From positions 26,511 through 65,831 of the IMG/VR virus record IMGVR_UViG_3300005096_000003: 39,321 nucleotides of DNA, one strand, 5' to 3'. Below are positions 19,105 to 38,872 of this stretch, one piece after another (position 1 is the first letter of the stretch; the number at the start of each line of letters is the position of its first letter). The stretch comes from a virus. The notes beneath the pieces were generated by a model that saw only the letters and a program-made list of their open reading frames with translations, was not told the DNA's origin and did no database searches. The translations under genes were made by a program, and so were the position numbers.

Positions 19105-19443
19105 CTCTGATTTCATGTCCGAAAGTTTTTTTGCTGTGACACCCAAACGTCGGCACTCTTTAGCAAGCTCACTTTTCTTTCTTGCTTTTTGGATGTCCGA
19201 GGTGCTCATTCCTGTGGGTTCCAGGATTGTAGTGTTCACCTCCACATCCCCATCTTCAAATTGAACCCCTTGTCCATTTTCTTTTCTGTCTGCCAGTAAC
19301 CATTTTTCAAATTCTTTCATCACCCAATTGTAATCTGCGTATAGGAAATCCTCATTATCAATTGTCACAGTCATGCGGCGTGGCACGAGCTCCTCTACTG
19401 TAAATTTCACCTGCATTGTGCGTGTGAGTTCTTTTTGTTTCAT
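19081..19443 (-). CDS. Protein of unknown function, last gene of the minus-strand block
   Basis: The 120-residue product has an N-terminal beta segment (MQVKFTVEELVPRRMTVTIDNEDF) and a basic helical C-terminus (IQKARKKSELAKECRRLGVTAKKL). No motif is recognised. Its ATG overlaps the stop of the upstream ATPase gene (ATGA), so it is made from the same mRNA as the Rad50-like C-lobe. It converges with the + strand glycosyltransferase. Confidence 0.6.
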   Translation of the reverse strand: MKQKELTRTMQVKFTVEELVPRRMTVTIDNEDFLYADYNWVMKEFEKWLLADRKENGQGVQFEDGDVEVNTTILEPTGMSTSDIQKARKKSELAKECRRLGVTAKKLSDMKSELCRRAVR

Positions 19444-20009
19444 AATTTTATTGTCGTTCCGATTTGTAGTTCGGGGATATGAGTGACCATTACAAATTGG
19501 ACGCCCATTTCTTTTGACAGTTGATCCAACATCATTCGCACACGATCTCTGTATTCTGCCGAGACGAATTTGAATGGCTCATCTAGGACCACCAATTGTC
19601 TAGGAGATGGGCGGGAGAGTGACAGACACGAGAGGCGGAGAGCAAATGCAGCCACGTCTACCACCCCGCCACCCGCTGCCGTGAGAGGGTCGATTCCTTC
19701 TCCGTTACGAACGAACGTGAGAACTGCTTCCGTGCGGCCCCTTTTTCGGTCGAACGTGATGCAGAATTCATAGGGCTCGTCGAACACAGATTCAAGGCAA
19801 CGGGAAACAACGGTTGCGATTTGAGTGTGTGCTTTTTGTTGCACGTTCTGTGCTATGCGCTGCAGGATCTGCACAGCTTCTGTGCAAGCCGCTAATCCCT
19901 GCCGAGATTTTTTGCGTTCTCTTTTTTCTTTCTTCAGTGCTTTGGTAGACGCTCTGAGTTTGGCAAGTTGTTTGTCAGCTCTTTTTCTTAGGTTTGTCAT
20001 TGAGGTCAT
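19440..20009 (-). CDS. C-terminal ATPase lobe of a split Rad50/SbcC-like protein
   Basis: The 189-residue product starts with a basic coiled coil (about 1-55). It then has the C-terminal half of an SMC/Rad50 ATPase: the signature region LTAAGGGVVDVAAFALRLS (about 120-140), Walker B LVVLDEPFKFVS (about 152-162) and the D-loop/H-switch region VTHIPEL (about 178-184). No Walker A is present. Walker A is supplied by the gene at 22087-23100. In normal Rad50 both halves are one chain joined by a coiled-coil hairpin with a zinc hook. Here they are separate genes with the Mre11-like nuclease between them. The start is ATG 20009; an internal ATG at 20000 is also possible. Confidence 0.82.
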   Translation of the reverse strand: MTSMTNLRKRADKQLAKLRASTKALKKEKRERKKSRQGLAACTEAVQILQRIAQNVQQKAHTQIATVVSRCLESVFDEPYEFCITFDRKRGRTEAVLTFVRNGEGIDPLTAAGGGVVDVAAFALRLSCLSLSRPSPRQLVVLDEPFKFVSAEYRDRVRMMLDQLSKEMGVQFVMVTHIPELQIGTTIKL

Positions 20010-21970: not shown

Positions 21971-22088
21971 AGCATCGACGGGATTCGAACCCGCAAAAAC
22001 AATATCGCGAGTAGATACTGTTCACTCGCACTCACGTGATTCTACGCAAGTTCCCGCGCAAGATGTGCACCAATTTCATCACGATGCT
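21971..22088 (-). tRNA. tRNA-like element of class II form, 118 bases, anticodon unclear
   Basis: Reading the minus strand, a perfect 7-bp acceptor stem forms between AGCATCG (22088-22082) and CGATGCT (21977-21971). The D arm has a GATG/CATC stem and a loop with GG, very like tRNA-Leu (GAAATTGGTGCACATC). The T arm is canonical, with loop TTCGAAT and GCGGG/CCCGT stem. Between them the sequence can form TGCGC/GCGTA with an 8-base loop GGGAACTT, and a second stem GCGAGT/ACTCGC (11-base loop) that looks like a long variable arm. The anticodon loop has one base too many and lacks U33, so I cannot assign an amino acid. No CCA is encoded. The 5' end overlaps the TAG of the Rad50-like gene. It may be a degenerate or non-standard tRNA, an intron-bearing one, or a mimic. 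Confidence 0.6.
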
Positions 22089-23100
22089 ACAAAGTTTTGC
22101 CACATATTGGGCAACTCCCTTTCATGTTTTTGTTGAGTTCCTCTTGCGCCACTGTCAATTCCTCTCTCAACTTTGTGGCGTCTTTTTCCAGTATGCACGC
22201 CTCCCATAATTGTAGACGTAGGTCGTTTGTTTTTTCGTTCAATTTTTCGTGCTTGATAAATAATAGTTGCGCCGACTCAAAATTTGGTGTCTGTTGTGTT
22301 GATTGTTGGTGACGCTTCTGACTGGACTGAACTGTTCTCTCAAACTCCTCCAGGTCATTTGTGTACTTAATCGACCGCTCCCCACTGGCAACCACTTTTC
22401 GTCCTTCTGTCGCAGCCTGTCCAAGGCGTTTGGATGTGGTCGCATAATCTCGGGCCTGACGAACCAATTTGCTTAGACGGATGAAGCTCTTGCGTTCTTT
22501 GGTTAGTTTTGATTCCAACCGCTCCACATGAATTAGCGCTTTGTCCAGAAGTTTGTAATGCTCAAGAGTGTCAATCTCTTTTTGTAATTCTGATGCACGT
22601 TTTTCTGATGCGCGGAAGTGGGCTCGTTCAGCAGTTAGCGCCTTCCCAACTCCAGATAATGTTTCATCCAGTGTGGATAAATCAACAACGGTGTTCAAAC
22701 GGCGGCTAACTTCAGGCGGTGACAGTGATAACCAGAATGCTGATTCGTGCTGGTTTTGAAATGTCGAATCCGCTATGTTAAGTAGCTGCCGGATTGGTTC
22801 TGGAACTGCAGTTCCAAATCCTGTAAACTCCTTGCCATCAAGTGAGTAGGAATTTACACTCTTGCCTCTCCGTCGAATGATTGTGTGCCCATCTATTTTC
22901 AAAGTGACGGCAGCTGTTTTGGCTCCGTGCCGCACAAATGCCTCACCTGTTGGCCGGTTTGTTAGCACCCACCAGATAGCTCGCAGCACGGACGACTTCC
23001 CAGCATCTGATGAACCAACGATGCATGTGACTCCATCATCGAAGTCTATAGTCAACTTCTTGTGCATCTGGAAGTTGCGGATGGTTGCGGACTCAATCAT
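22087..23100 (-). CDS. N-terminal ATPase lobe and half arm of a split Rad50/SbcC-like protein
   Basis: ATG 23100 is chosen because it overlaps the stop of the small membrane gene (ATGA) and gives MIESATIRNFQMHK, the usual start for this family. Of 337 residues, the first 150 carry the Rad50 N-lobe: Walker A IVGSSDAGKSS (about 29-39) and a Q-loop-like NQHESAFWLS (about 110-120). A coiled coil fills 165-320. The C-terminus ends in CPICGKTL, a zinc-hook-type CxxC. Rad50 normally turns at the hook and returns to the C-lobe; here the chain stops at the hook. The missing half is the gene at 19440-20009. Confidence 0.85.
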   Translation of the reverse strand: MIESATIRNFQMHKKLTIDFDDGVTCIVGSSDAGKSSVLRAIWWVLTNRPTGEAFVRHGAKTAAVTLKIDGHTIIRRRGKSVNSYSLDGKEFTGFGTAVPEPIRQLLNIADSTFQNQHESAFWLSLSPPEVSRRLNTVVDLSTLDETLSGVGKALTAERAHFRASEKRASELQKEIDTLEHYKLLDKALIHVERLESKLTKERKSFIRLSKLVRQARDYATTSKRLGQAATEGRKVVASGERSIKYTNDLEEFERTVQSSQKRHQQSTQQTPNFESAQLLFIKHEKLNEKTNDLRLQLWEACILEKDATKLREELTVAQEELNKNMKGSCPICGKTL

Positions 23101-23198
23101 TTCGGTAGTTTCTTTTTTGGTGATGCCGCCCAAAAAAGAATCCCAGCAAATACGATGGTCACTGCTATCCAGACTGTGGACTCAGTAATTGGATTCAT
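23097..23198 (-). CDS. Tiny single-pass membrane protein (33 residues)
   Basis: The frame starts at ATG 23198, which overlaps the TGA of the upstream gene (ATGA). It ends in a TGA that overlaps the ATG of the Rad50-like gene (ATGA). GGGGAG lies about 11 bases upstream. The peptide has a short polar N-terminus (MNPITEST), a hydrophobic helix VWIAVTIVFAGILFWAA and a basic tail (SPKKKLPK), the layout of an N-out, C-in membrane helix. Double overlap with both neighbours strongly suggests a translated gene. The function is unknown. Confidence 0.68.
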   Translation of the reverse strand: MNPITESTVWIAVTIVFAGILFWAASPKKKLPK

Positions 23199-25775: not shown

Positions 25776-26646
25776 TGCGGACTCCAATTCCTCTCATAGT
25801 TTTGATGCCGAGTTTATTCATTACTCGGTCCCATTTTTTCGGGCTGGTTTTGTCATCACGAATAATGAATGATTGTGTTCCTATAAATGGCAGACGCACC
25901 AATTTCCTATTTACCTTGATTAGTTTCTTCCCTGCCGTGATGTTTTGGTAGGCGGCGGATGTTTTATTCAATTCATCCCGCAAATACTTGGCGGCTGTTT
26001 TCTCACCGACGCCTTTAATCCCTTTCACATCATCCCCACTGCACCCAGCAATTGCTTTTACCTTAGCCCAATGTTTTGGGTGGAATTTGTGTTCACCCAC
26101 AAAAGAGTTGAACGTTGTGGTGCTCTTGGACGCGGGGCTATAAAGAGAAATCCCGGGTAGCAGCAGTTGCAATAAATCGTTGTCAGAACTCACAATGACA
26201 ATACGTTCGTCTGTTGGAATACTGCGCTGACAAATAGAAGCTATGAGGTCGTCGGCTTCCATACCCTTTTGATGGAACACGTTTTTGAAGCCAAGTTCCT
26301 TCAAAAGTTTTTTTCGCAGTCGTGTGATCTGTTCGTAAAACTCCACCCACAATTTTTTTTCTTGCTCTGACTGGTTTTCGCGTTTCTTTTTGCGGGAAGA
26401 TTTGTATGTTGGTAGGATGTCTTTGCGAAAATTTATACGGGAGTCGAAGCAGAAGATTATGTTGCGTGTGCTAAAGTCTGCTTGCAAGTTTATAATATCC
26501 TGCAACACTCCATAGATTACACCTGTTCCCACCCCACCGTGCCGCAAATGGCCTAGGGCATAATACGCACGGTGACAGAGATAATTGGTGTCAAGTAAAA
26601 GCCACGTCTTCTTTTGGTTTCCTTTTTCTTTTCCGTGCTTTGACAT
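25744..26646 (-). CDS. 5'-3' exonuclease (FEN/T5 D15 family)
   Basis: ATG 26646 has GGAGG 6 bases upstream and gives 300 residues starting MSKHGKEKG; upstream in-frame codons lack a site. Metal-binding acidic motifs are visible: LLLDTNYLCHRAYYA (about 16-30), IIFCFDS, GMEADDLIASI and VSSDNDLLQLL. The helix-hairpin-helix follows (DDVKGIKGVGEKTAAKYL). Such enzymes remove RNA primers and flaps. In bacterial PolA this domain is fused to the polymerase; here it is free, and the polymerase at 30425-31843 lacks it. It overlaps the downstream nuclease gene by 32 bases. Confidence 0.88.
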   Translation of the reverse strand: MSKHGKEKGNQKKTWLLLDTNYLCHRAYYALGHLRHGGVGTGVIYGVLQDIINLQADFSTRNIIFCFDSRINFRKDILPTYKSSRKKKRENQSEQEKKLWVEFYEQITRLRKKLLKELGFKNVFHQKGMEADDLIASICQRSIPTDERIVIVSSDNDLLQLLLPGISLYSPASKSTTTFNSFVGEHKFHPKHWAKVKAIAGCSGDDVKGIKGVGEKTAAKYLRDELNKTSAAYQNITAGKKLIKVNRKLVRLPFIGTQSFIIRDDKTSPKKWDRVMNKLGIKTMRGIGVRNGKVKQRRSI

Positions 26647-29526: not shown

Positions 29527-30428
29527 TGTGCAATAACGTCGTGACACGCCAAAACAAGTCCAGCTTTGCCATTGTCAAAGAAATTATCTGCGAAGGCTTC
29601 CAGAACTAATGCTGCACGGCCCGGTGGCCGACCACTCAGCATAACAGTCGTCGTGTAGGCTAACACCAGCCTCCGCACCCCCTCTGGTTCGTCATCAACT
29701 GCTTTCAAAATACCACACATCTCACCCCACGTTGTTGACTTCCGGATAAGTGCCCGCGCGATTTCAATTGCTTGTTTTTTAGTGTCGGAGTTGTCAATCA
29801 ACTTCATATGATTTTTGGGTTTGATTCCAAGCAATTTATTCAGCAGAACTAGACCATGGCGTGCCGAGCCTCCGGCGATGTCTGTGATGCGGTCTCGCAC
29901 CTCTTCATTCACCTTCATCTTCTCTGCTTTGGCCACTCGTTGGAGCAGTGTGTCCATTTCTTTTGGATCGAGTAACTGAGTTGTCACGTCAGTGCAACGA
30001 GTCCGAATGGTGGGTAGCAGTTTTTTTGGTTCTGTTGTGGCGAGTACGAAATAAGCATGGTCCGGCGTGTCTTCGAGCATTTTGAGCAGGGCGTTTTGTG
30101 CGTCCTTCGTCATGCTGTGTACTTCATCCAGCAGCCAGATGCGGCAGTCGCCACCTAGCGGGTATGTATTGATCCGTTTACGAACATTGCGGACGTCGTC
30201 AATACCACGGAAGTCCGCAATGTTCAGTTCGGTGAAGTCCCCGTTGTCACAGTTCAGTGTGCGTTTGATAATACGTGCTAGAGTTGTCTTGCCTGTGCCA
30301 GACGGACCGGAGAACAGGATAGCATGCGGCAAGTTCTTACCGAAGCCCCGCAAAGTGCCAACCGCAGCTGTGTTTCCCACAATCATTTCCAAAGTTTTGG
30401 GACGGTGCTTCTTATATAATTCCTTCAT
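29520..30428 (-). CDS. Clamp loader ATPase, DnaX/replication factor C-like
   Basis: The 302-residue product has the AAA+ clamp loader motifs: YKKHRPKTLEMIVG at the start, Walker A GPSGTGKTTL (about 41-50), Walker B LLDEVHSM (about 99-106), sensor 1-type ATTEPKK (about 131-137) and a TRCTD box (about 142-146), the usual SRC-like arginine finger site. It should load the sliding clamp encoded at 33123-34145. It is much shorter than bacterial DnaX and lacks the four-Cys zinc module. The ATG overlaps the polymerase stop (ATGA), with AAAGGAAAG upstream. Confidence 0.87.
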   Translation of the reverse strand: MKELYKKHRPKTLEMIVGNTAAVGTLRGFGKNLPHAILFSGPSGTGKTTLARIIKRTLNCDNGDFTELNIADFRGIDDVRNVRKRINTYPLGGDCRIWLLDEVHSMTKDAQNALLKMLEDTPDHAYFVLATTEPKKLLPTIRTRCTDVTTQLLDPKEMDTLLQRVAKAEKMKVNEEVRDRITDIAGGSARHGLVLLNKLLGIKPKNHMKLIDNSDTKKQAIEIARALIRKSTTWGEMCGILKAVDDEPEGVRRLVLAYTTTVMLSGRPPGRAALVLEAFADNFFDNGKAGLVLACHDVIAQK

Positions 30429-31843
30429 ACCACTTTCCTTTCATATATTTGTTTTTGAAACCAATTGCCATCCACTGGAGTGACTTCGGGCTCCACTTCC
30501 AATGGCACAATCAACCACTTCCATTCCTGCATCAAAGCATCTGTCATAAATCGCACAGCGGTTTCAATGTATTCATCGAGTTCTTCTATCGGTACATCGG
30601 CAATTATACTGTCGTGGATTTGAAGAACTATTTTTGACTGCATCCAGCGTTGTTTTTCAAGGTAAGTTTGTAGTTCAATTAACGCCCACAACAGACAATG
30701 AAACGCCGAACCTTGAATAGGATAGTTGATTATTTCGTTGCGGCTTAGGTCCCCGGAAATTGTAAATCCCGTGAGTGTGTGCATCGATCCGCGTCTTTGA
30801 AACTTATCACACCACTTATTTTTCCAATCACCATACACTTCAAATCGATTGCCCCAAAAATCTTTTTCTACTGATTTTACGTGTGACTCAAATGTTCCTT
30901 TTTTAGGGTCTTCCTTAGGGTCAAGCGCCCCCAACTTTTTAAGACCCACTCTATTCAAGTGCTTGCGTAGTGGCAGCTCTTTTCCGTTTTTTAGATAAGT
31001 TAAATCTGCCGACGACTTCCACAATGCACGTGCATTATTGATATACCAATCACCGTAGAATTGTGGAAAAACGAATTGGTTTTTCCCTGCGTGTCTAGCC
31101 GCCTTTGTGATTTGTTTGGGTTTTAATTTGTAAATCTGTGCCGCCATATCACGATGCATGTCTTTTGTTGGGTCTGTGATATACTCTATCATTCTCGGGT
31201 CTTTGTGGTAGCAGGCAGCAACGCACACTTCGGCGCCACTGATGTCGATTTCCACAAGGACTCGGCCTTTTCGGGGGATAAAGCATGGTCTAATAATAGC
31301 GGCCATGGCAGGATCGCGAATTGGAATGTTTTGCAGGCTTGGACTATCAATTGAACTTCGGTAAGTCTTTGCTACATGAAGATTGTTGACCGCATGTATT
31401 AGACCGTCCTGTTCATGCTTGAGAATTCCATTGAGATATGTTCCTCGAATTTTGTTCAATTGTTTCCAATGGATATAAAGTTCCACAAATTTTAGACCCG
31501 TGGACTTCAATGCCGCTTCATCCGATTTGTATTGTTTCTTTTTTTCTGTAGACCCTTTTGTTTCCCCAGGGCTTGGGAATTTCATAACGTCAAATAGAAT
31601 AGTCGCAAGCTGTTTGTCGGCACCCAAGTTCGTTTTTGTGTGGAACCGTTTGTTCCACGTTTTGAAGATGGTGTCGGACATCAACTCTTCTTCGACCCGC
31701 TTAATTTTTTTGGTGGTTTTTTTGATTGTTTTCTTTAGACACTTCACATCAATTCTCATGCCGTTCCCTTCGACGCCAGCAAGAGCGATGCAGCCATCGT
31801 GGAGCAATTTATATGCAGCAGGAGTGGTTGCCTTTATTTTCAT
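30425..31843 (-). CDS. Family A DNA polymerase, polymerase domain only
   Basis: The 472-residue product carries the thumb, palm and finger domains of family A polymerases. The SLQNIPIRDP motif is at about 169-178, and motif A is LVEIDISGAEVCVAA with Asp200. Motif B runs from R250 through K254 to Y263-G264, and motif C is LQIHDSIIAD with Asp411. Motif C has Ser where many family A enzymes have Glu (HDE). Motif B has FP where FG is usual. No 3'-5' or 5'-3' exonuclease domain is fused; both are encoded as separate genes here (31909-33126 and 25744-26646). There are 65 bases between this gene and the UDG-exonuclease. Confidence 0.9.
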   Translation of the reverse strand: MKIKATTPAAYKLLHDGCIALAGVEGNGMRIDVKCLKKTIKKTTKKIKRVEEELMSDTIFKTWNKRFHTKTNLGADKQLATILFDVMKFPSPGETKGSTEKKKQYKSDEAALKSTGLKFVELYIHWKQLNKIRGTYLNGILKHEQDGLIHAVNNLHVAKTYRSSIDSPSLQNIPIRDPAMAAIIRPCFIPRKGRVLVEIDISGAEVCVAACYHKDPRMIEYITDPTKDMHRDMAAQIYKLKPKQITKAARHAGKNQFVFPQFYGDWYINNARALWKSSADLTYLKNGKELPLRKHLNRVGLKKLGALDPKEDPKKGTFESHVKSVEKDFWGNRFEVYGDWKNKWCDKFQRRGSMHTLTGFTISGDLSRNEIINYPIQGSAFHCLLWALIELQTYLEKQRWMQSKIVLQIHDSIIADVPIEELDEYIETAVRFMTDALMQEWKWLIVPLEVEPEVTPVDGNWFQKQIYERKVV

Positions 31844-31908: not shown

Positions 31909-33126
31909 TTATGGGTTAGGAGCATGATATCCCATTTGTTTCATTTGTTTGACCGCCACGTCAAATGTGAGAAGACTGTCTAGACCATTGTAGGTCAATA
32001 AATGATGGATGTTGATATCTCGAACTCGGTTTAGCATGGAGCCCCTTTTGCTTCTGAGAAACCGTTTGATATGTTTATCATAAGGGCTTTGGCCGCAATG
32101 AACGAATGCTTGAAAGTTGAGCGAGCATATTTCTCGGCGATTGTCAATAGCGTGCGCACCAAGCATGCCACACCAATGCCAATTTGCTACGACTATTTGA
32201 AGGACCCGGCGCGTCCACCGTTCCTCAAATTTGATATTGAATCCATATTTTGGCATGGGTGATTGGACAAAACGTTTGAATGCTTTGACTGCGTCCCCAT
32301 GCCAAGGAAATGCAATGGTTCGTTTGCCCTGCCAGCAGATGGATGCGGCCACAATTTCCGCACCCGGTGTTTCTGGTTTGATGCAGTTGCATTCATAGTC
32401 AAAGGATGCTGGACCGCCTTGTTTTACAATCCAATCAATTGCTTTTGCTGCCTTTACGTGATCAAGGATTACAGTGACGTCATCCTCATACTTTGGTGGT
32501 TTTTCCCAAGGTCTACTTGTGTGTTTGCATGCCGCCTCTAGATGCTGCCGCCATTGAATTGCAACGTGTCTTTTCTTTTCAATTGTTTTATCAATGAATG
32601 ACGGGTGCCAAGTTGGGCAAACCCAAGCGTTCAACTCAGTTGACGGTATACTCCACCCCACCCAACGGCGTCCATCACCCGGCTCCTCTTTCCATATATT
32701 TTTTAGTGTGGAACTTATTCCAAATCTTCCAAGCGGAATGATTAGTTTGGGTTTGATTTTGGCGATCGTGTTCACCACATTTGGACGACAGTATTTGATT
32801 TCTTTTTTGGTGGGATCCCTATTATCTGCCGGCCGGCAGATAAGTGCGTTTGTGGTGTAGCAATCTTGCTGGAGGTCGATCCCAAACGCTTGCAGTTGGT
32901 TCTCTAGTCTCTGTGCAGCTTTGCCCGCAAACGCTAAACCCCGCCTGTCTTCTGTTTTGTCGGGCGCCTCCCCAACAATGAGTATATCTTTGCGTCCCTG
33001 TCCACTCACTTTCATTTTAGGTGTGTTACATTGGCGCCATAAACCGCATACCCCACATTTGGGTATATTCGACTCAGGCTCTTCACCCGAGTGCATTTCG
33101 GATACTGTGAAAAATCCTTGTCTCAT
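31909..33126 (-). CDS. Uracil-DNA glycosylase (family 4-like) fused to a 3'-5' exonuclease
   Basis: The 405-residue product has two domains. Residues 20-205 match family 4 uracil-DNA glycosylases: Cys24/Cys27 in CGVCG, GEAPDKTEDRRGLAFAGKA (about 52-70), Cys97 and Cys113 flanking NRDPTKKEIKYC, and WHPSF (about 173-177). The four Cys could hold a [4Fe-4S] cluster. Residues 215-405 look like a DEDD exonuclease: FDYECN (Asp243, Glu245), NIKFE (about 297-301) and a Tyr-Asp pair in YNGLDSLL near the end. The exonuclease II motif has Glu in place of the usual Asp. The SPO1 phage polymerase carries a UDG domain upstream of exo and pol; this gene plus the next look like that order split in two. Confidence 0.82.
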   Translation of the reverse strand: MRQGFFTVSEMHSGEEPESNIPKCGVCGLWRQCNTPKMKVSGQGRKDILIVGEAPDKTEDRRGLAFAGKAAQRLENQLQAFGIDLQQDCYTTNALICRPADNRDPTKKEIKYCRPNVVNTIAKIKPKLIIPLGRFGISSTLKNIWKEEPGDGRRWVGWSIPSTELNAWVCPTWHPSFIDKTIEKKRHVAIQWRQHLEAACKHTSRPWEKPPKYEDDVTVILDHVKAAKAIDWIVKQGGPASFDYECNCIKPETPGAEIVAASICWQGKRTIAFPWHGDAVKAFKRFVQSPMPKYGFNIKFEERWTRRVLQIVVANWHWCGMLGAHAIDNRREICSLNFQAFVHCGQSPYDKHIKRFLRSKRGSMLNRVRDINIHHLLTYNGLDSLLTFDVAVKQMKQMGYHAPNP

Positions 33127-34155: not shown

Positions 34156-35499
34156 TCAATTCAATAATTCCGCAAACCCTTGATGCTTTCGCCGGGCTCG
34201 GAATGGCCATGGGTATTGCGGAAGGTTATTCCGCAGTTCTTCAAAGAACAGTAGATTCGCCGCTCGTCGTTCCGTGTGGCGTGTCATGACACCATTGGAT
34301 TTGATAATCAATTTTCCGTTTTTGTGTCGGTAAGTTCCGAGCTCGATGTTGTGTTCGTGCAGCCACTGTCTGACGGTTTTTTGCTCTTCGCGGCTCATGT
34401 CCCAATAGGGAAGAGGGGCATTATCCCGCCTCATAGATTCGACCGATATGGTGACTGTGTGAGGTTGCTTGTCGTACCTCCATGCACCCTTGTGGCTGGC
34501 GGGGATAAAGATATACCCGTAAGCCCCCTTTTTCGTCCAGGATGTGGAGTCCACGCTGAACCACGGGTATCTGAGGAGCAGTTGGAAGCTGGTGACACCG
34601 AAGCCGTGTAGTTTTACTTTCGGCACCATAGAGGGTGGTTCGCAGACGATGTCAAAGCAGCGATCAATCCAATCCTTGCACGACTTTTGACTTGAACTCC
34701 CAACCAACCCTCCTAGACCTATAAATTCATAGCCCTGGTCGAGGTAATGCTGCAGCCAACGATGTCTCGTGGTGTAGTGAACTACGGGCACAGGGTCAAG
34801 TCCTCTCGCTTCCAACCACTCCTGATTCCTCCAAGTCATCCGTGCATACTTGTCAGCGAAGTGGTCTCCCTTTTGCTCCCATTTCTTTCCACGTTTCTTC
34901 CATTTTTTGGTATCCCGCATTGGAATCACGTCAATGTTGGCGCAGTAGTCAATAGCGTGTTCCCATTTTTTATTGAACGCGACATATGCTTCCATATAAG
35001 CCCAAAACTCGTCGCTGTTATAAAAATCTAGCGGGTGGCATTTGTGTTCTTCGGCAAACTCGGAACAGCGGGTCCAGATTGTAAACGCACCTGAGTCGAG
35101 GAAGTGGGAATCAACCCTCCCCACTTTCACATCATCCATTTTCATGGATAGGTCAAATACCTCATCCCACTGTTGCAATACGCGGCCGGGTTTGGGTTTC
35201 TTCCTTCGTTGTTTCTCAATTTTTTTGAAACGGCTGTCAGGTTTTTTTTGGTAGTTATGAAATGTTAGCATCAGATTTGATTCATCCCCGAGTAGAACTT
35301 CGGGGTTTGAGCGGCTGCCTTCGCCGCTATAGTAGATTATCATATGGTGGTTCCTGAATAACCGTTTAAACCGAAGTGGCAGTCCGGCGCTCTTTGCTTT
35401 CCAGATGTCATGGAAAGTTGTCATCACATGACATGGGTCTAATACCCGTTCGGGCGTTCCATTCAGTTCCGTGTGTGCCCCCGAATGGTATATGATCAT
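34156..35499 (-). CDS. dpdA: DpdA-like 7-deazaguanine DNA transglycosylase (TGT family)
   Basis: The 447-residue product belongs to the TGT-like DpdA family, which swaps guanine in DNA for a 7-deazaguanine base. Visible landmarks are HFLDSGAFTIW (about 133, Asp), AIDYCANIDVIPM (about 188), a Gly-rich phosphate site YEFIGLGGLVGSS (about 260) and HGFGVTSFQLLLRYPWFSVDSTSW with a candidate nucleophile Asp (about 320). The first 52 residues look like a second copy of the N-terminal element: MIIYHSG...MTTFHD, then MIIYYSG...MLTFHNY from residue 53. AGGA stands 8 bases before Met53 (35343), which may be an alternative start. The whole preQ0 pathway is encoded just upstream. Confidence 0.82.
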   Translation of the reverse strand: MIIYHSGAHTELNGTPERVLDPCHVMTTFHDIWKAKSAGLPLRFKRLFRNHHMIIYYSGEGSRSNPEVLLGDESNLMLTFHNYQKKPDSRFKKIEKQRRKKPKPGRVLQQWDEVFDLSMKMDDVKVGRVDSHFLDSGAFTIWTRCSEFAEEHKCHPLDFYNSDEFWAYMEAYVAFNKKWEHAIDYCANIDVIPMRDTKKWKKRGKKWEQKGDHFADKYARMTWRNQEWLEARGLDPVPVVHYTTRHRWLQHYLDQGYEFIGLGGLVGSSSQKSCKDWIDRCFDIVCEPPSMVPKVKLHGFGVTSFQLLLRYPWFSVDSTSWTKKGAYGYIFIPASHKGAWRYDKQPHTVTISVESMRRDNAPLPYWDMSREEQKTVRQWLHEHNIELGTYRHKNGKLIIKSNGVMTRHTERRAANLLFFEELRNNLPQYPWPFRARRKHQGFAELLN

Positions 35500-35656: not shown

Positions 35657-36598
35657 TCATCCCCCAATCAATTGGAACAGTTCCGAGCGTGCTTTGGCGT
35701 CTTTACGAAAGACGCCAGTGAGACTTGATGTTTTCATGACGGACCCCTGCTTCTGCACTCCGCGGCACATCATACACAAATGCTTTGCCTTGATAATGCA
35801 CGCGGAGCCTATTGGGTTAAGATGTTTGTTGATGGCTGTGGTGATGTCCGTGGTGAGGCGCTCTTGGATTTGCAAACGGTGGGCGAAGATGTCAAGTAGG
35901 CGTGCCAATTTTGAGACGCCAATAACTTTACCATCCCTCGGGATGTAGCCGATCGTTGCCGATCCGATGAATGGGAGCATGTGATGCTCACACGTGGAGT
36001 AGAACTCAATGTCCTGCAAAATTACTAGTTCATCTACACCTTCATCAAACACCTTGAAGACGGATTCGGGGTCCTTCTTATATCCGCCAAACGTCTCACT
36101 CATTGCTGCTACTACGCGATGCGGGGTTTCAATCAAACCCGGTCGTTCGGGGTCTTCTCCAATATACTGCAGGATGCGTTTGATATTGTCGTGTGGTCCG
36201 TCGTTTTTTGCCATGCGCTCCCAAGGAAAAGAAAGCCACGGCTTAGGGTCTGGCATCTGTCTCTTATCATAAAGAGACCAGAAATCTTTTTCTCCATAAG
36301 CCTCAAAAACACCCTGCATTGTGTCGCCGGAATCAATTAAATCATCTATGTAGCAATTGCAGTCTTTTGGGTCTTCTACAATCTCAAGGCGAACGTTGGG
36401 TAGCTGGTTCACGTATTGTTGAACAAGCAGCACAACCGGGATGCCACCATTTGGAATGGCATAGGCACGAATCACTCCTATGTCCTCCTCGGCACCACTC
36501 AAATTATTTGGGTGGTATTGTTCCGCCATAATGGCGCTGACCGCGGCTGCTTGTGTGTGCACATCAGACCACAGCAAATTTTTTTTAATTTGTGTCAC
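35657..36598 (-). CDS. folE: Phosphoribosyltransferase-like domain fused to GTP cyclohydrolase I
   Basis: The GTG start has GGAGG 7 bases upstream and overlaps the previous stop. Of 313 residues, 134-313 are GTP cyclohydrolase I: ETPHRVVAAM (about 157), STCEHHMLPF with zinc ligands Cys203 and His206, GVSKLARLLDIFAHRLQIQERLT (about 228-249, in parts) and LCMMCRGVQKQGS with Cys275. It makes 7,8-dihydroneopterin triphosphate, the first step to preQ0. Residues 1-130 look like a type I phosphoribosyltransferase: AIPNGGIPVVLL (PPi loop region, about 47-58) and the PRPP loop YIDDLIDSGDT (about 83-93), then SLYDKR and WLSFPWE. FolE is normally about 190-220 residues without this domain. The extra domain might salvage a purine base to supply GTP. 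Confidence 0.87.
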   Translation of the reverse strand: MTQIKKNLLWSDVHTQAAAVSAIMAEQYHPNNLSGAEEDIGVIRAYAIPNGGIPVVLLVQQYVNQLPNVRLEIVEDPKDCNCYIDDLIDSGDTMQGVFEAYGEKDFWSLYDKRQMPDPKPWLSFPWERMAKNDGPHDNIKRILQYIGEDPERPGLIETPHRVVAAMSETFGGYKKDPESVFKVFDEGVDELVILQDIEFYSTCEHHMLPFIGSATIGYIPRDGKVIGVSKLARLLDIFAHRLQIQERLTTDITTAINKHLNPIGSACIIKAKHLCMMCRGVQKQGSVMKTSSLTGVFRKDAKARSELFQLIGG

Positions 36599-36867
36599 TT
36601 GAGTTCCTCCAATTGTTTGCTATTAAGGGATGAGCAGTCCGGGCACAACCAACCCCACCCATTTTTGAAAGACCATCCATGGTCTTTGATGGAGACTGTA
36701 GCGGCAGCTCTACGTGTTCCCATGAATGCTGTGTTAATGAGCCGGCCCGGTTTTTGCTGGAGAGCTGGCACAGAAATACCAATGTGGCATCCACCACATT
36801 TTGTGTCCATAGTTTTTGTTTTTGAATTAAAAACAAAGATTGATGATTTTTTTGTGTTGAATGACAC
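36595..36867 (-). CDS. Small zinc-ribbon-like protein within the queuosine-type cassette
   Basis: GTG 36867 is chosen because AGGAG stands 7 bases upstream; a TTG at 36873 is also in frame. The product has 90 residues. Two Cys pairs, CGGC (about residues 24-27) and CPDC (about 75-78), could bind one zinc ion. Between them are an Arg-rich stretch (MGTRRAAATVS) and a Trp-rich one (GWSFKNGWGWLCPDC). It is coupled to the folE fusion by a GTGA overlap and lies 31 bases after queC. The function is unknown; a role in DNA or protein binding within the modification system is possible. Confidence 0.62.
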   Translation of the reverse strand: MSFNTKKSSIFVFNSKTKTMDTKCGGCHIGISVPALQQKPGRLINTAFMGTRRAAATVSIKDHGWSFKNGWGWLCPDCSSLNSKQLEELK

Positions 36868-36898
36868 AATCAATCTCCTGTTAGATGCGGTGCATCAA

Positions 36899-37618
36899 TT
36901 ACGATTTGGCAAGTTCCCCGCGATACTCATACTTGATGGGGTCTTCGATTTGATTCAATCGAAATGCCTCTAAGCGCTCTTGGCATGCCCCACATTTGCC
37001 GCAGGCGTTTTTTTGATCTTTGTAGCAGGTTCGTGTCATGGCGTAGGGCATATCAATCGACACCCCCTTTGCAAGGATGCTAATCTTATTCATGCCAAGG
37101 AACGGTGCCTCAAGAATCACGCGACCGTCCGTCCCCATTCTGGTAGCGCGATCCATATCGTAAAAGAATTCAGGACGACAATCGGGATAGACTGCGTGGT
37201 CGCCTTGATGGATTCCAATCTGAACAATGGATTGTTCATTTTTTGACGTGCTTCGGGACCATGCCAATGCGATAGCATGCGATATGAAAATAATGTTACG
37301 ACCCGGAACCACGGTTTGACTCATACTCTCTGCTTCGTAGTGACCCTCCGGGATTTTACCCCCTGACTTTAGCAAGTTGGATTTGATGTCTTTTGTGGCC
37401 GCCGCCAGGTCAATTACGACACGCTCAACACCAAGATGCTCACACAATTGAAACGCTTTTTCCATTTCATACGGATTATGTTTGGATCCGTAAATAAAAC
37501 TGACAGCGATAACTTCCTCAAATCTTTGTGAAGCAACTGTGATTGCTAACATGGTTCCAGAGTCCATCCCTCCAGATAAGGAAACCACACATAGACGTTG
37601 AAATTTGAGTGTTTTCAT
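36899..37618 (-). CDS. queC: QueC, 7-cyano-7-deazaguanine (preQ0) synthase
   Basis: The 239-residue product has the PP-loop ATP-binding motif SLSGGMDSGT (about 13-22), a VVPGRNIIFISHAI segment (about 101-115) and the zinc motif CGKCGACQERLEAF (about 204-218), as in QueC. It converts 7-carboxy-7-deazaguanine to preQ0 with ATP and ammonia. No glutamine amidotransferase or other domain is fused, so the end product is predicted to be preQ0 and not the G+ type. TAGGAG before its ATG overlaps the queE stop. Confidence 0.92.
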   Translation of the reverse strand: MKTLKFQRLCVVSLSGGMDSGTMLAITVASQRFEEVIAVSFIYGSKHNPYEMEKAFQLCEHLGVERVVIDLAAATKDIKSNLLKSGGKIPEGHYEAESMSQTVVPGRNIIFISHAIALAWSRSTSKNEQSIVQIGIHQGDHAVYPDCRPEFFYDMDRATRMGTDGRVILEAPFLGMNKISILAKGVSIDMPYAMTRTCYKDQKNACGKCGACQERLEAFRLNQIEDPIKYEYRGELAKS

Positions 37619-37631
37619 GAGTATATTGCTC

Positions 37632-38330
37632 CTAATCTAGTCCACACAATTTGTGAACCTGCAAACACAGACGATGGTTGTGTTTCAGGCACGAGGCTAC
37701 TGCTGCTTTGATGTGGTTTGCGTTTTCGTAGTAATTCCCAGAATCATATGGTTGGATAAAAATATCACCAACAAAGTCTGCCGGGGGACGCCAAACACGC
37801 ACGTCATCGTTAAGCACGCGCAATGGCAGACCATCTACTGGGTCAATATGACGGTCTTGTACCACATATTTTAGTGCTCCAATATGTGGAATGAGTCTTT
37901 TATTCAACTCCACAGTTTTTGGACTGCACACAACGGTCAGTGAGTTGGCGTCGTAAGGGAGACCCGAAACAAATAGTGTGCCATTCGTTTCGATCTGCAC
38001 GTTGAAGCCCCAGACAAGTAACGAAAGAACTGCAGGTGCTATGTTCTGCCGCATGGGCTCTCCGCCAGTAAACACGACCAGTGATGGTGAACGCCTGATT
38101 TTTTTGATTGCTTTTGCTAATTCTACGGGACCATACTGTTTGCGTTTGGATGTATAATCCGTGTCACATCCGGAGCACAGCAGGTTGCATCCCCAGAGGC
38201 GAACAAATACTGCTGGAACACCAGCGTATGGTCCCTCTCCTTGAATAGTTTCCCACATACTGTGGACGTTTAATTTTCCGTCCGGGTCTACATTAGAACC
38301 CACTGGTTGTTGCGTGTTTGTAGTCGTCAC
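37632..38330 (-). CDS. queE: QueE, 7-carboxy-7-deazaguanine synthase
   Basis: The 232-residue product carries the radical SAM cluster motif C-x3-C-x2-C (CNLLCSGC, about 48-55) preceded by IQGEGPYAGVPAVFVRLWG, the hallmark of QueE. It also has VVFTGGEPM (about 85-93). It turns 6-carboxy-tetrahydropterin into 7-carboxy-7-deazaguanine. The start is GTG with AAAGGAG 7 bases upstream. The conserved 24-bp element lies upstream, between queD and queE. Length is typical for the family. Confidence 0.92.
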   Translation of the reverse strand: MTTTNTQQPVGSNVDPDGKLNVHSMWETIQGEGPYAGVPAVFVRLWGCNLLCSGCDTDYTSKRKQYGPVELAKAIKKIRRSPSLVVFTGGEPMRQNIAPAVLSLLVWGFNVQIETNGTLFVSGLPYDANSLTVVCSPKTVELNKRLIPHIGALKYVVQDRHIDPVDGLPLRVLNDDVRVWRPPADFVGDIFIQPYDSGNYYENANHIKAAVASCLKHNHRLCLQVHKLCGLD

Positions 38331-38361: not shown

Positions 38362-38385
38362 TATTATCGGCGTTGATTCTATTTC
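38362..38385 (-). promoter_or_regulatory. Conserved 24-bp intergenic element, copy B (candidate phage promoter)
   Basis: This copy matches copy A (29503-29526) at 22 of 24 positions. It lies at the end of queD and 31 bases before the queE start. A GATAATA box and shared GAAATAG...ATCAA upstream sequence suggest a promoter or a binding site. A weaker partial match (18 of 24) lies inside the nuclease gene at 25274-25297. Confidence 0.6.
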
Positions 38386-38872
38386 ACTCGACACAATGGT
38401 CCGCCCAACAATTTGGGGTCTCGTACACTCGAATTTTGAGGACTCGAATTTTGGAATGACCGGCGTTATTGAGCAATTCCTGCGCCACATAAAATAATTG
38501 TATGGCGATATTTTCTGCCGTGGGGTTGGTTCCTTCCGGGAAAATGAATGGTTTTTTCCCACCAAAGATACACTGCCCGCCTAACATAGATTTCAGTTCG
38601 CTATCTAGATGCGGAATTTTCCATAGCTGTGCCACTGGATCTTGTGGGTGCAGGAGCAGATTATGGTCCCAATTTTCATCAATCCAAGCGCCAACAATTG
38701 TTTTTAGCACCCCGAAATCAATCACTCTTCCTTTTTCATCTAATCCGTCACTTGGGTTGTTGACTGTGATCTCTGCTACATAGCGGTGACCGTGAAGATG
38801 TTTACATTTTGATTCGTGCTTGAGTACCCTATGTCCGGCGTCAAACTCTAGGCGACGAGTAGCAGTGGGCAT
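38384..38872 (-). CDS. queD: QueD, 6-carboxy-5,6,7,8-tetrahydropterin synthase
   Basis: The 162-residue product has the QueD/PTPS pattern: FDAGHRVLKHESKCKHLHGHRY with zinc His residues and the catalytic Cys (about 10-31, key positions His14, Cys23, His27 and His29), then DFGVLKTIV (about 72) and DENWDHNLLL (about 85), and a late Glu in YETPNC. It makes 6-carboxytetrahydropterin from the FolE product. CAGGAG lies 5 bases before the ATG. A terminator lies just upstream, so this is the first gene after it. Confidence 0.9.
   Translation of the reverse strand: MPTATRRLEFDAGHRVLKHESKCKHLHGHRYVAEITVNNPSDGLDEKGRVIDFGVLKTIVGAWIDENWDHNLLLHPQDPVAQLWKIPHLDSELKSMLGGQCIFGGKKPFIFPEGTNPTAENIAIQLFYVAQELLNNAGHSKIRVLKIRVYETPNCWADHCVE

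Follow-up and report, generated by a model that had tools for sequence, protein, structure and literature searches.

Why would a phage join a phosphoribosyltransferase (PRT) to GTP cyclohydrolase I (FolE) in a gene cluster that appears to serve the modification of its DNA with 7-deazaguanines? This question is raised by a gene in a stretch of 39,321 nucleotides, hereafter the window, which represents one part (positions 26,511 to 65,831) of the 65.8-kb virus record IMGVR_UViG_3300005096_000003. The gene is encoded on the minus strand, the first-pass annotation having named no strand, and belongs to a same-strand series in the order QueD, QueE, QueC, a small ORF, PRT-FolE, DpdA, a polymerase clamp and a family A DNA polymerase:

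34156 to 35499, minus strand: DpdA, DNA guanine transglycosylase (PHROG 887, E=3.4e-37)
35657 to 36598, minus strand: PRT-FolE fusion gene, 313 amino acids, GTG start
36606 to 36610, minus strand: Shine-Dalgarno-like GGAGG of the fusion gene, read from the sequence
36899 to 37618, minus strand: QueC without GAT domain, 239 amino acids (PF06508, 1.1e-52)
37632 to 38330, minus strand: QueE-like radical SAM enzyme (PHROG 2076, 1e-48)
38384 to 38872, minus strand: QueD (PF01242, 5.8e-29)

We predict this operon, QueD-QueE-QueC-[PRT-FolE]-DpdA, to be of the phage 7-deazaguanine DNA-modification type with dPreQ0 as its product. An amidotransferase leading to dG+ would be a GAT domain, QueF-L or ArcS; QueC has no GAT domain, and QueF was not found in the 65.8-kb record, which may itself be a fragment. 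Separating queC from the fusion gene, the small ORF (36595 to 36873, minus strand) contains two CxxC pairs and is zinc-ribbon-like, gave no family match above threshold, and has its stop overlapped by the GTG of the latter gene (GTGA). Further along the series, the family A DNA polymerase is divided between two ORFs (30425 to 31843 and 31909 to 33126, minus strand) separated by a 65-base gap and matching consecutive parts of phrog_17 (474-828 and 835-1234), the first half resembling a uracil-DNA-glycosylase-like domain plus a 3'-5' exonuclease. Elsewhere in the window an SbcC-like ATPase seemingly occurs in two pieces (19440 to 20009 and 22087 to 23133, minus strand), one N-terminal and bearing a CPIC hook motif, the other the C-terminal ATPase portion, with a metallophosphoesterase gene between them.

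Two separate genes joined by a frameshift, or a chimeric assembly, are ruled out by the single open reading frame of 313 amino acids and by the many homologues; with 128 fetched loci sharing the fusion, an artefact of assembly is excluded. The protein is organised as follows:

35666 to 36187, minus strand: FolE domain, residues 138-311 (PF01227, E=1.9e-68)
36209 to 36598, minus strand: N-terminal XGPRT-type PRT domain, residues 1-130 (profile, hhalign, AlphaFold, Foldseek)
36443 to 36457, minus strand: PPi-loop motif IPNGG, residues 48-52 (family consensus [IV]PRGG)
36320 to 36352, minus strand: PRPP-binding loop YIDDLIDSGDT, residues 83-93 (D85, D86, G91 and T93 invariant)
36263 to 36265, minus strand: K112, which lines up with the Lys contacting the base in E. 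coli XGPRT (101 of 113 homologues have Lys here)
36218 to 36238, minus strand: hood motif WLSFPWE, residues 121-127 (WIEQPWD in E. coli XGPRT)

The C-terminal part is a GTP cyclohydrolase I, matching PF01227 above the cut-off and carrying the zinc/catalytic positions C203, H205, H206, H273 and C275, which are invariant among the homologues. The model of this domain has M. tuberculosis FolE as its top Foldseek match with 49% identity. The complete FolE with its zinc Cys/His residues, which had been placed at residues 134-313, is therefore borne out, the profile match spanning residues 138-311.

The N-terminal domain of the window protein alone has no Pfam PRTase match and gives a weak match to a PHROG 'phosphoribosyl transferase' family (E=0.0095), so that the window sequence by itself would not settle its identity. 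A profile of 35 sequences, comprising the window protein and 34 homologues, matched the archaeal purine PRTase 1vdm (E=1.4e-14) and E. coli XGPRT (E=1.1e-10); PF00156 was matched individually by 21 of the 35 members, and hhalign against E. coli Gpt gave 98.5%. AlphaFold models reached a pLDDT of 92.9 for the full-length protein and of 94.1 for residues 1-130 modelled separately, the latter having chains of E. coli XGPRT as its top Foldseek matches (probability 1.00, TM 0.55-0.58). A PRPP motif arising by chance is ruled out by the profile and fold searches. According to these comparisons and models, the N-terminal domain is a type I PRT of the 6-oxopurine XGPRT/Gpt kind, supporting the earlier proposal of a PRT-like domain with a PRPP loop, here located at residues 83-93, and of a purine PRT fused to FolE in a single chain.

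We infer a catalytic domain with guanine, supplied by DpdA, as its substrate, starting from the observed fold, family, fusion, recurrence and genomic linkage. According to PMC6884629, TGT-type enzymes swap guanine for the incoming base, and hence one guanine is freed per insertion. This leads to a model according to which FolE would begin preQ0 synthesis from GTP and DpdA would replace guanine of the phage DNA with preQ0, releasing one guanine per swap; the XGPRT-type domain would use PRPP to convert the released guanine (or xanthine) to GMP, which phage or host kinases would phosphorylate to GTP, feeding the attached FolE. Capturing guanine would at the same time remove the product opposing the DpdA exchange and save purine. 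We give an even chance to a bifunctional enzyme returning DpdA-released guanine through GMP to GTP for preQ0 synthesis. Tentatively, and with slightly less confidence, we propose a closed guanine loop, in which a guanine PRTase built onto FolE would return DpdA-ejected guanine to the precursor of the base being inserted and thereby drive the exchange forward. As to scale, using the 28-32% G replacement measured in the preQ0 phages CAjan and Rosebush (PMC6884629), 100 genomes of this size would release ~0.9-1.0 million guanines, corresponding to ~1.4-1.6 mM in 1 fL, an estimate resting on an assumed burst size, volume and modification level, the last taken from those other phages.

The PRPP loop follows the pattern DD..[ST]G.T at residues 85-93, and the alignment with Gpt places K112 and W121 at what we take to be the base-contacting Lys and hood Trp positions of XGPRT, corresponding to the Lys and aromatic hood presumed to contact 6-oxopurines. 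Among 113 distinct fusion proteins, Lys112 is conserved in 101, Trp121 in 106, Pro125 and Trp126 in 111 each and Glu/Asp127 in all 113, none of these positions having played a part in choosing the loci. Part of the invariance of the PRPP loop stems from the selection itself, the PRPP-loop motif having been used to choose the second batch of loci; the first batch, chosen by other patterns, also carries the conserved loop. The N-terminal domain shows dN/dS values well under 1 in close pairs (mostly 0.03-0.3), medians from distant pairs being saturated and hence left out. The PPi loop resembles [SK]RGG, but with the Arg replaced by Asn: the window protein has PNGG, and PRGG is found in 87 of the 113 homologues. 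The full flexible catalytic loop is absent from the window domain, as the segment between the GG of the PPi loop and the DD of the PRPP loop comprises about 32 residues compared to 48 in E. coli Gpt (20-43 residues, median 27, across the 113 homologues). We therefore file it as an XGPRT-type domain and not as a proven XGPRT. Two fusions, L067 and L068, have the longest PPi-to-PRPP segment (~43 residues) together with an ISRGG motif and are nearest to canonical XGPRT.

With the flexible loop trimmed, a non-catalytic, ligand-sensing role is possible, and the strongest rival to salvage is a domain that senses nucleotides. The domain would have kept its PRPP/purine-nucleotide pocket as a regulator tuning FolE to PRPP, GMP or guanine. 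PRT folds do serve as regulators, as in PurR and PyrR, and a flexible loop trimmed in almost every fused protein alongside a retained ligand pocket, together with the variable Arg of the PPi loop, would fit such a role. We nevertheless consider it unlikely, because the base-recognition Lys and the Trp hood are conserved almost like the PRPP loop and because PRT copies unattached to FolE exist, one of them full-length and Gpt-like.

The fusion is widespread. We found it in 128 fetched virus and phage loci (counting the window copy; a few loci overlap or are identical, leaving the 113 distinct proteins), with que or dpd genes nearby in all 128. The first-pass annotation had suggested looking for the same fusion beside dpdA in other phages, and DpdA indeed lies within the fetched stretch in 110 of these loci; searching ten DpdA-negative records over their whole length revealed it in three more, the remaining seven being mostly short contigs. 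A tblastn search against GenBank phages identified the fusion in at least 33 records (30 with more than 80% coverage and three Vibrio phages slightly below), and VpKK5 and NP1 (Queuovirinae) as well as Sphingomonas phage MMDA13 have it in the identical que-folE-dpdA arrangement. The 80 best FolE loci from a scan of bacterial genomes contained no fusion (0/80). The earlier statement that FolE normally lacks such a domain accordingly holds for bacteria within these 80 loci but not for phages, in which the fusion is common. Its presence in so many guanine-replacing phages suggests that guanine ejected from DNA may be recycled as raw material.

The distribution also bears on a salvage of general purines, in which the domain would supply the nucleotide pool with xanthine, guanine or hypoxanthine from the breakdown of host nucleic acids, unrelated to DpdA. 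The XGPRT family uses both xanthine and guanine, and nucleotide-salvage genes are frequent in phages; however, all 128 fusions occur in que/dpd contexts and are joined to FolE instead of to general nucleotide enzymes, rendering this explanation improbable. No NMP-kinase genes were found near the fused loci with a two-sequence profile. Many dpdA phages have a plain, unfused FolE with no PRT nearby, indicating that phages either can do without the PRT activity or obtain it from the host. Mapping the presence of the fusion onto a quickly built FolE tree takes 14 changes, of which supported branches compel at least four, and the tree carries long-branch warnings; a single clean origin is thus unlikely and the number of events unsure. 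One locus (L059) was considered a candidate for a decayed PRT domain and reached 7.5% in hhalign.

PRT genes are also found unfused beside the pathway. Flavobacterium phage immuto has the order queD-queE-PRT-folE-dpdA with small genes interspersed, its PRT, of confirmed identity, being a separate gene directly upstream of folE, and in another locus (L050) a stand-alone PRT lies between queC and queD. Brevundimonas phage MaInes (L250) shows the order dNMP kinase-folE-PRT, with a Gpt-like PRT containing a full-length loop immediately after folE and with que genes elsewhere. In Cellulophaga phage phiST (L249) the PRT adjoins a dNMP-kinase-like gene, the queD-queE-folE cluster being located elsewhere, and in Pseudomonas phage Callisto gpt adjoins queE. 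Such gene neighbourhoods in unrelated phages tie the PRT to the pathway. A further stand-alone PRT-like gene (L071, 66-533), near queD, queE and folE, has an altered PRPP loop (IDDDLATGVT) and an altered hood and has possibly decayed.

DpdA was not found in phiST, MaInes and Callisto by a search with three protein families, which also overlooked the annotated DpdA of immuto, so its absence from them is not established; MaInes and phiST may insert 7-deazaguanines by another route. A PRT converting the pathway base (preQ0 or carboxy-deazaguanine) to a nucleotide, with the modified base entering DNA via the dNTP pool, would suit the co-occurrence of PRT with folE/que genes in these three phages and the dNMP-kinase-like genes close to the PRT in two of them, but we regard it as very improbable given the doubt about the missing DpdA, the presence of DpdA, an enzyme that puts the free base straight into DNA, in the window and most fused loci, and the uselessness of a nucleotide to DpdA.

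Returning to the recycling of DpdA-released guanine, the shortened flexible loop, the PPi-loop Arg replaced by Asn and the dpdA phages with plain FolE count against it, as do two kinase steps: with GMP as the product, these would lie between the active sites and make direct channelling impossible. If the proposal is true, DNA transglycosylation would have a salvage step devoted to it. In the literature searched we found no discussion of the fate of guanine freed by DNA transglycosylation, and a widespread fusion linking a family of salvage enzymes to the first, GTP-consuming step offers a directly testable answer. The fusion is furthermore usable as a marker for preQ0-modifying phages.

Both enzymes and the pathway are known, and the fusion and its likely role are apparently, and provisionally, undescribed in the open literature searched. 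Compared to E. coli Gpt (PDB 1a95) and archaeal 1vdm, the N-terminal domain has the same fold, PRPP loop, PPi-loop GG, Lys position and Trp hood followed by PW[DE], and it differs by its fusion to FolE, the trimmed flexible loop, an identity of ~20% and its phage lineage. With GTP cyclohydrolase I (PF01227) the protein shares the complete domain including the zinc and catalytic Cys/His residues, whereas bacterial FolE lacks the N-terminal PRT domain in the 80 best loci. As in the phage 7-deazaguanine systems of CAjan, Rosebush and 9g described in PMC6884629, the main text of which yielded no reference to a fused FolE, the window, which stems from a metagenomic record, has all five genes FolE-QueD-QueE-QueC-DpdA, the minimal dPreQ0 set; it differs from them by the PRT domain on FolE. 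VpKK5, NP1 and MMDA13 have the same fused gene with the same neighbours, que-folE-dpdA-clamp-DNA polymerase. Their records name the product simply GTP cyclohydrolase, the domain marked in that of MMDA13 covering only residues 116-295, and our analysis corrects this annotation of a common phage protein. The immuto protein gp211 represents the same trimmed PRT domain beside folE in a que-dpdA cluster, encoded there as a separate gene.
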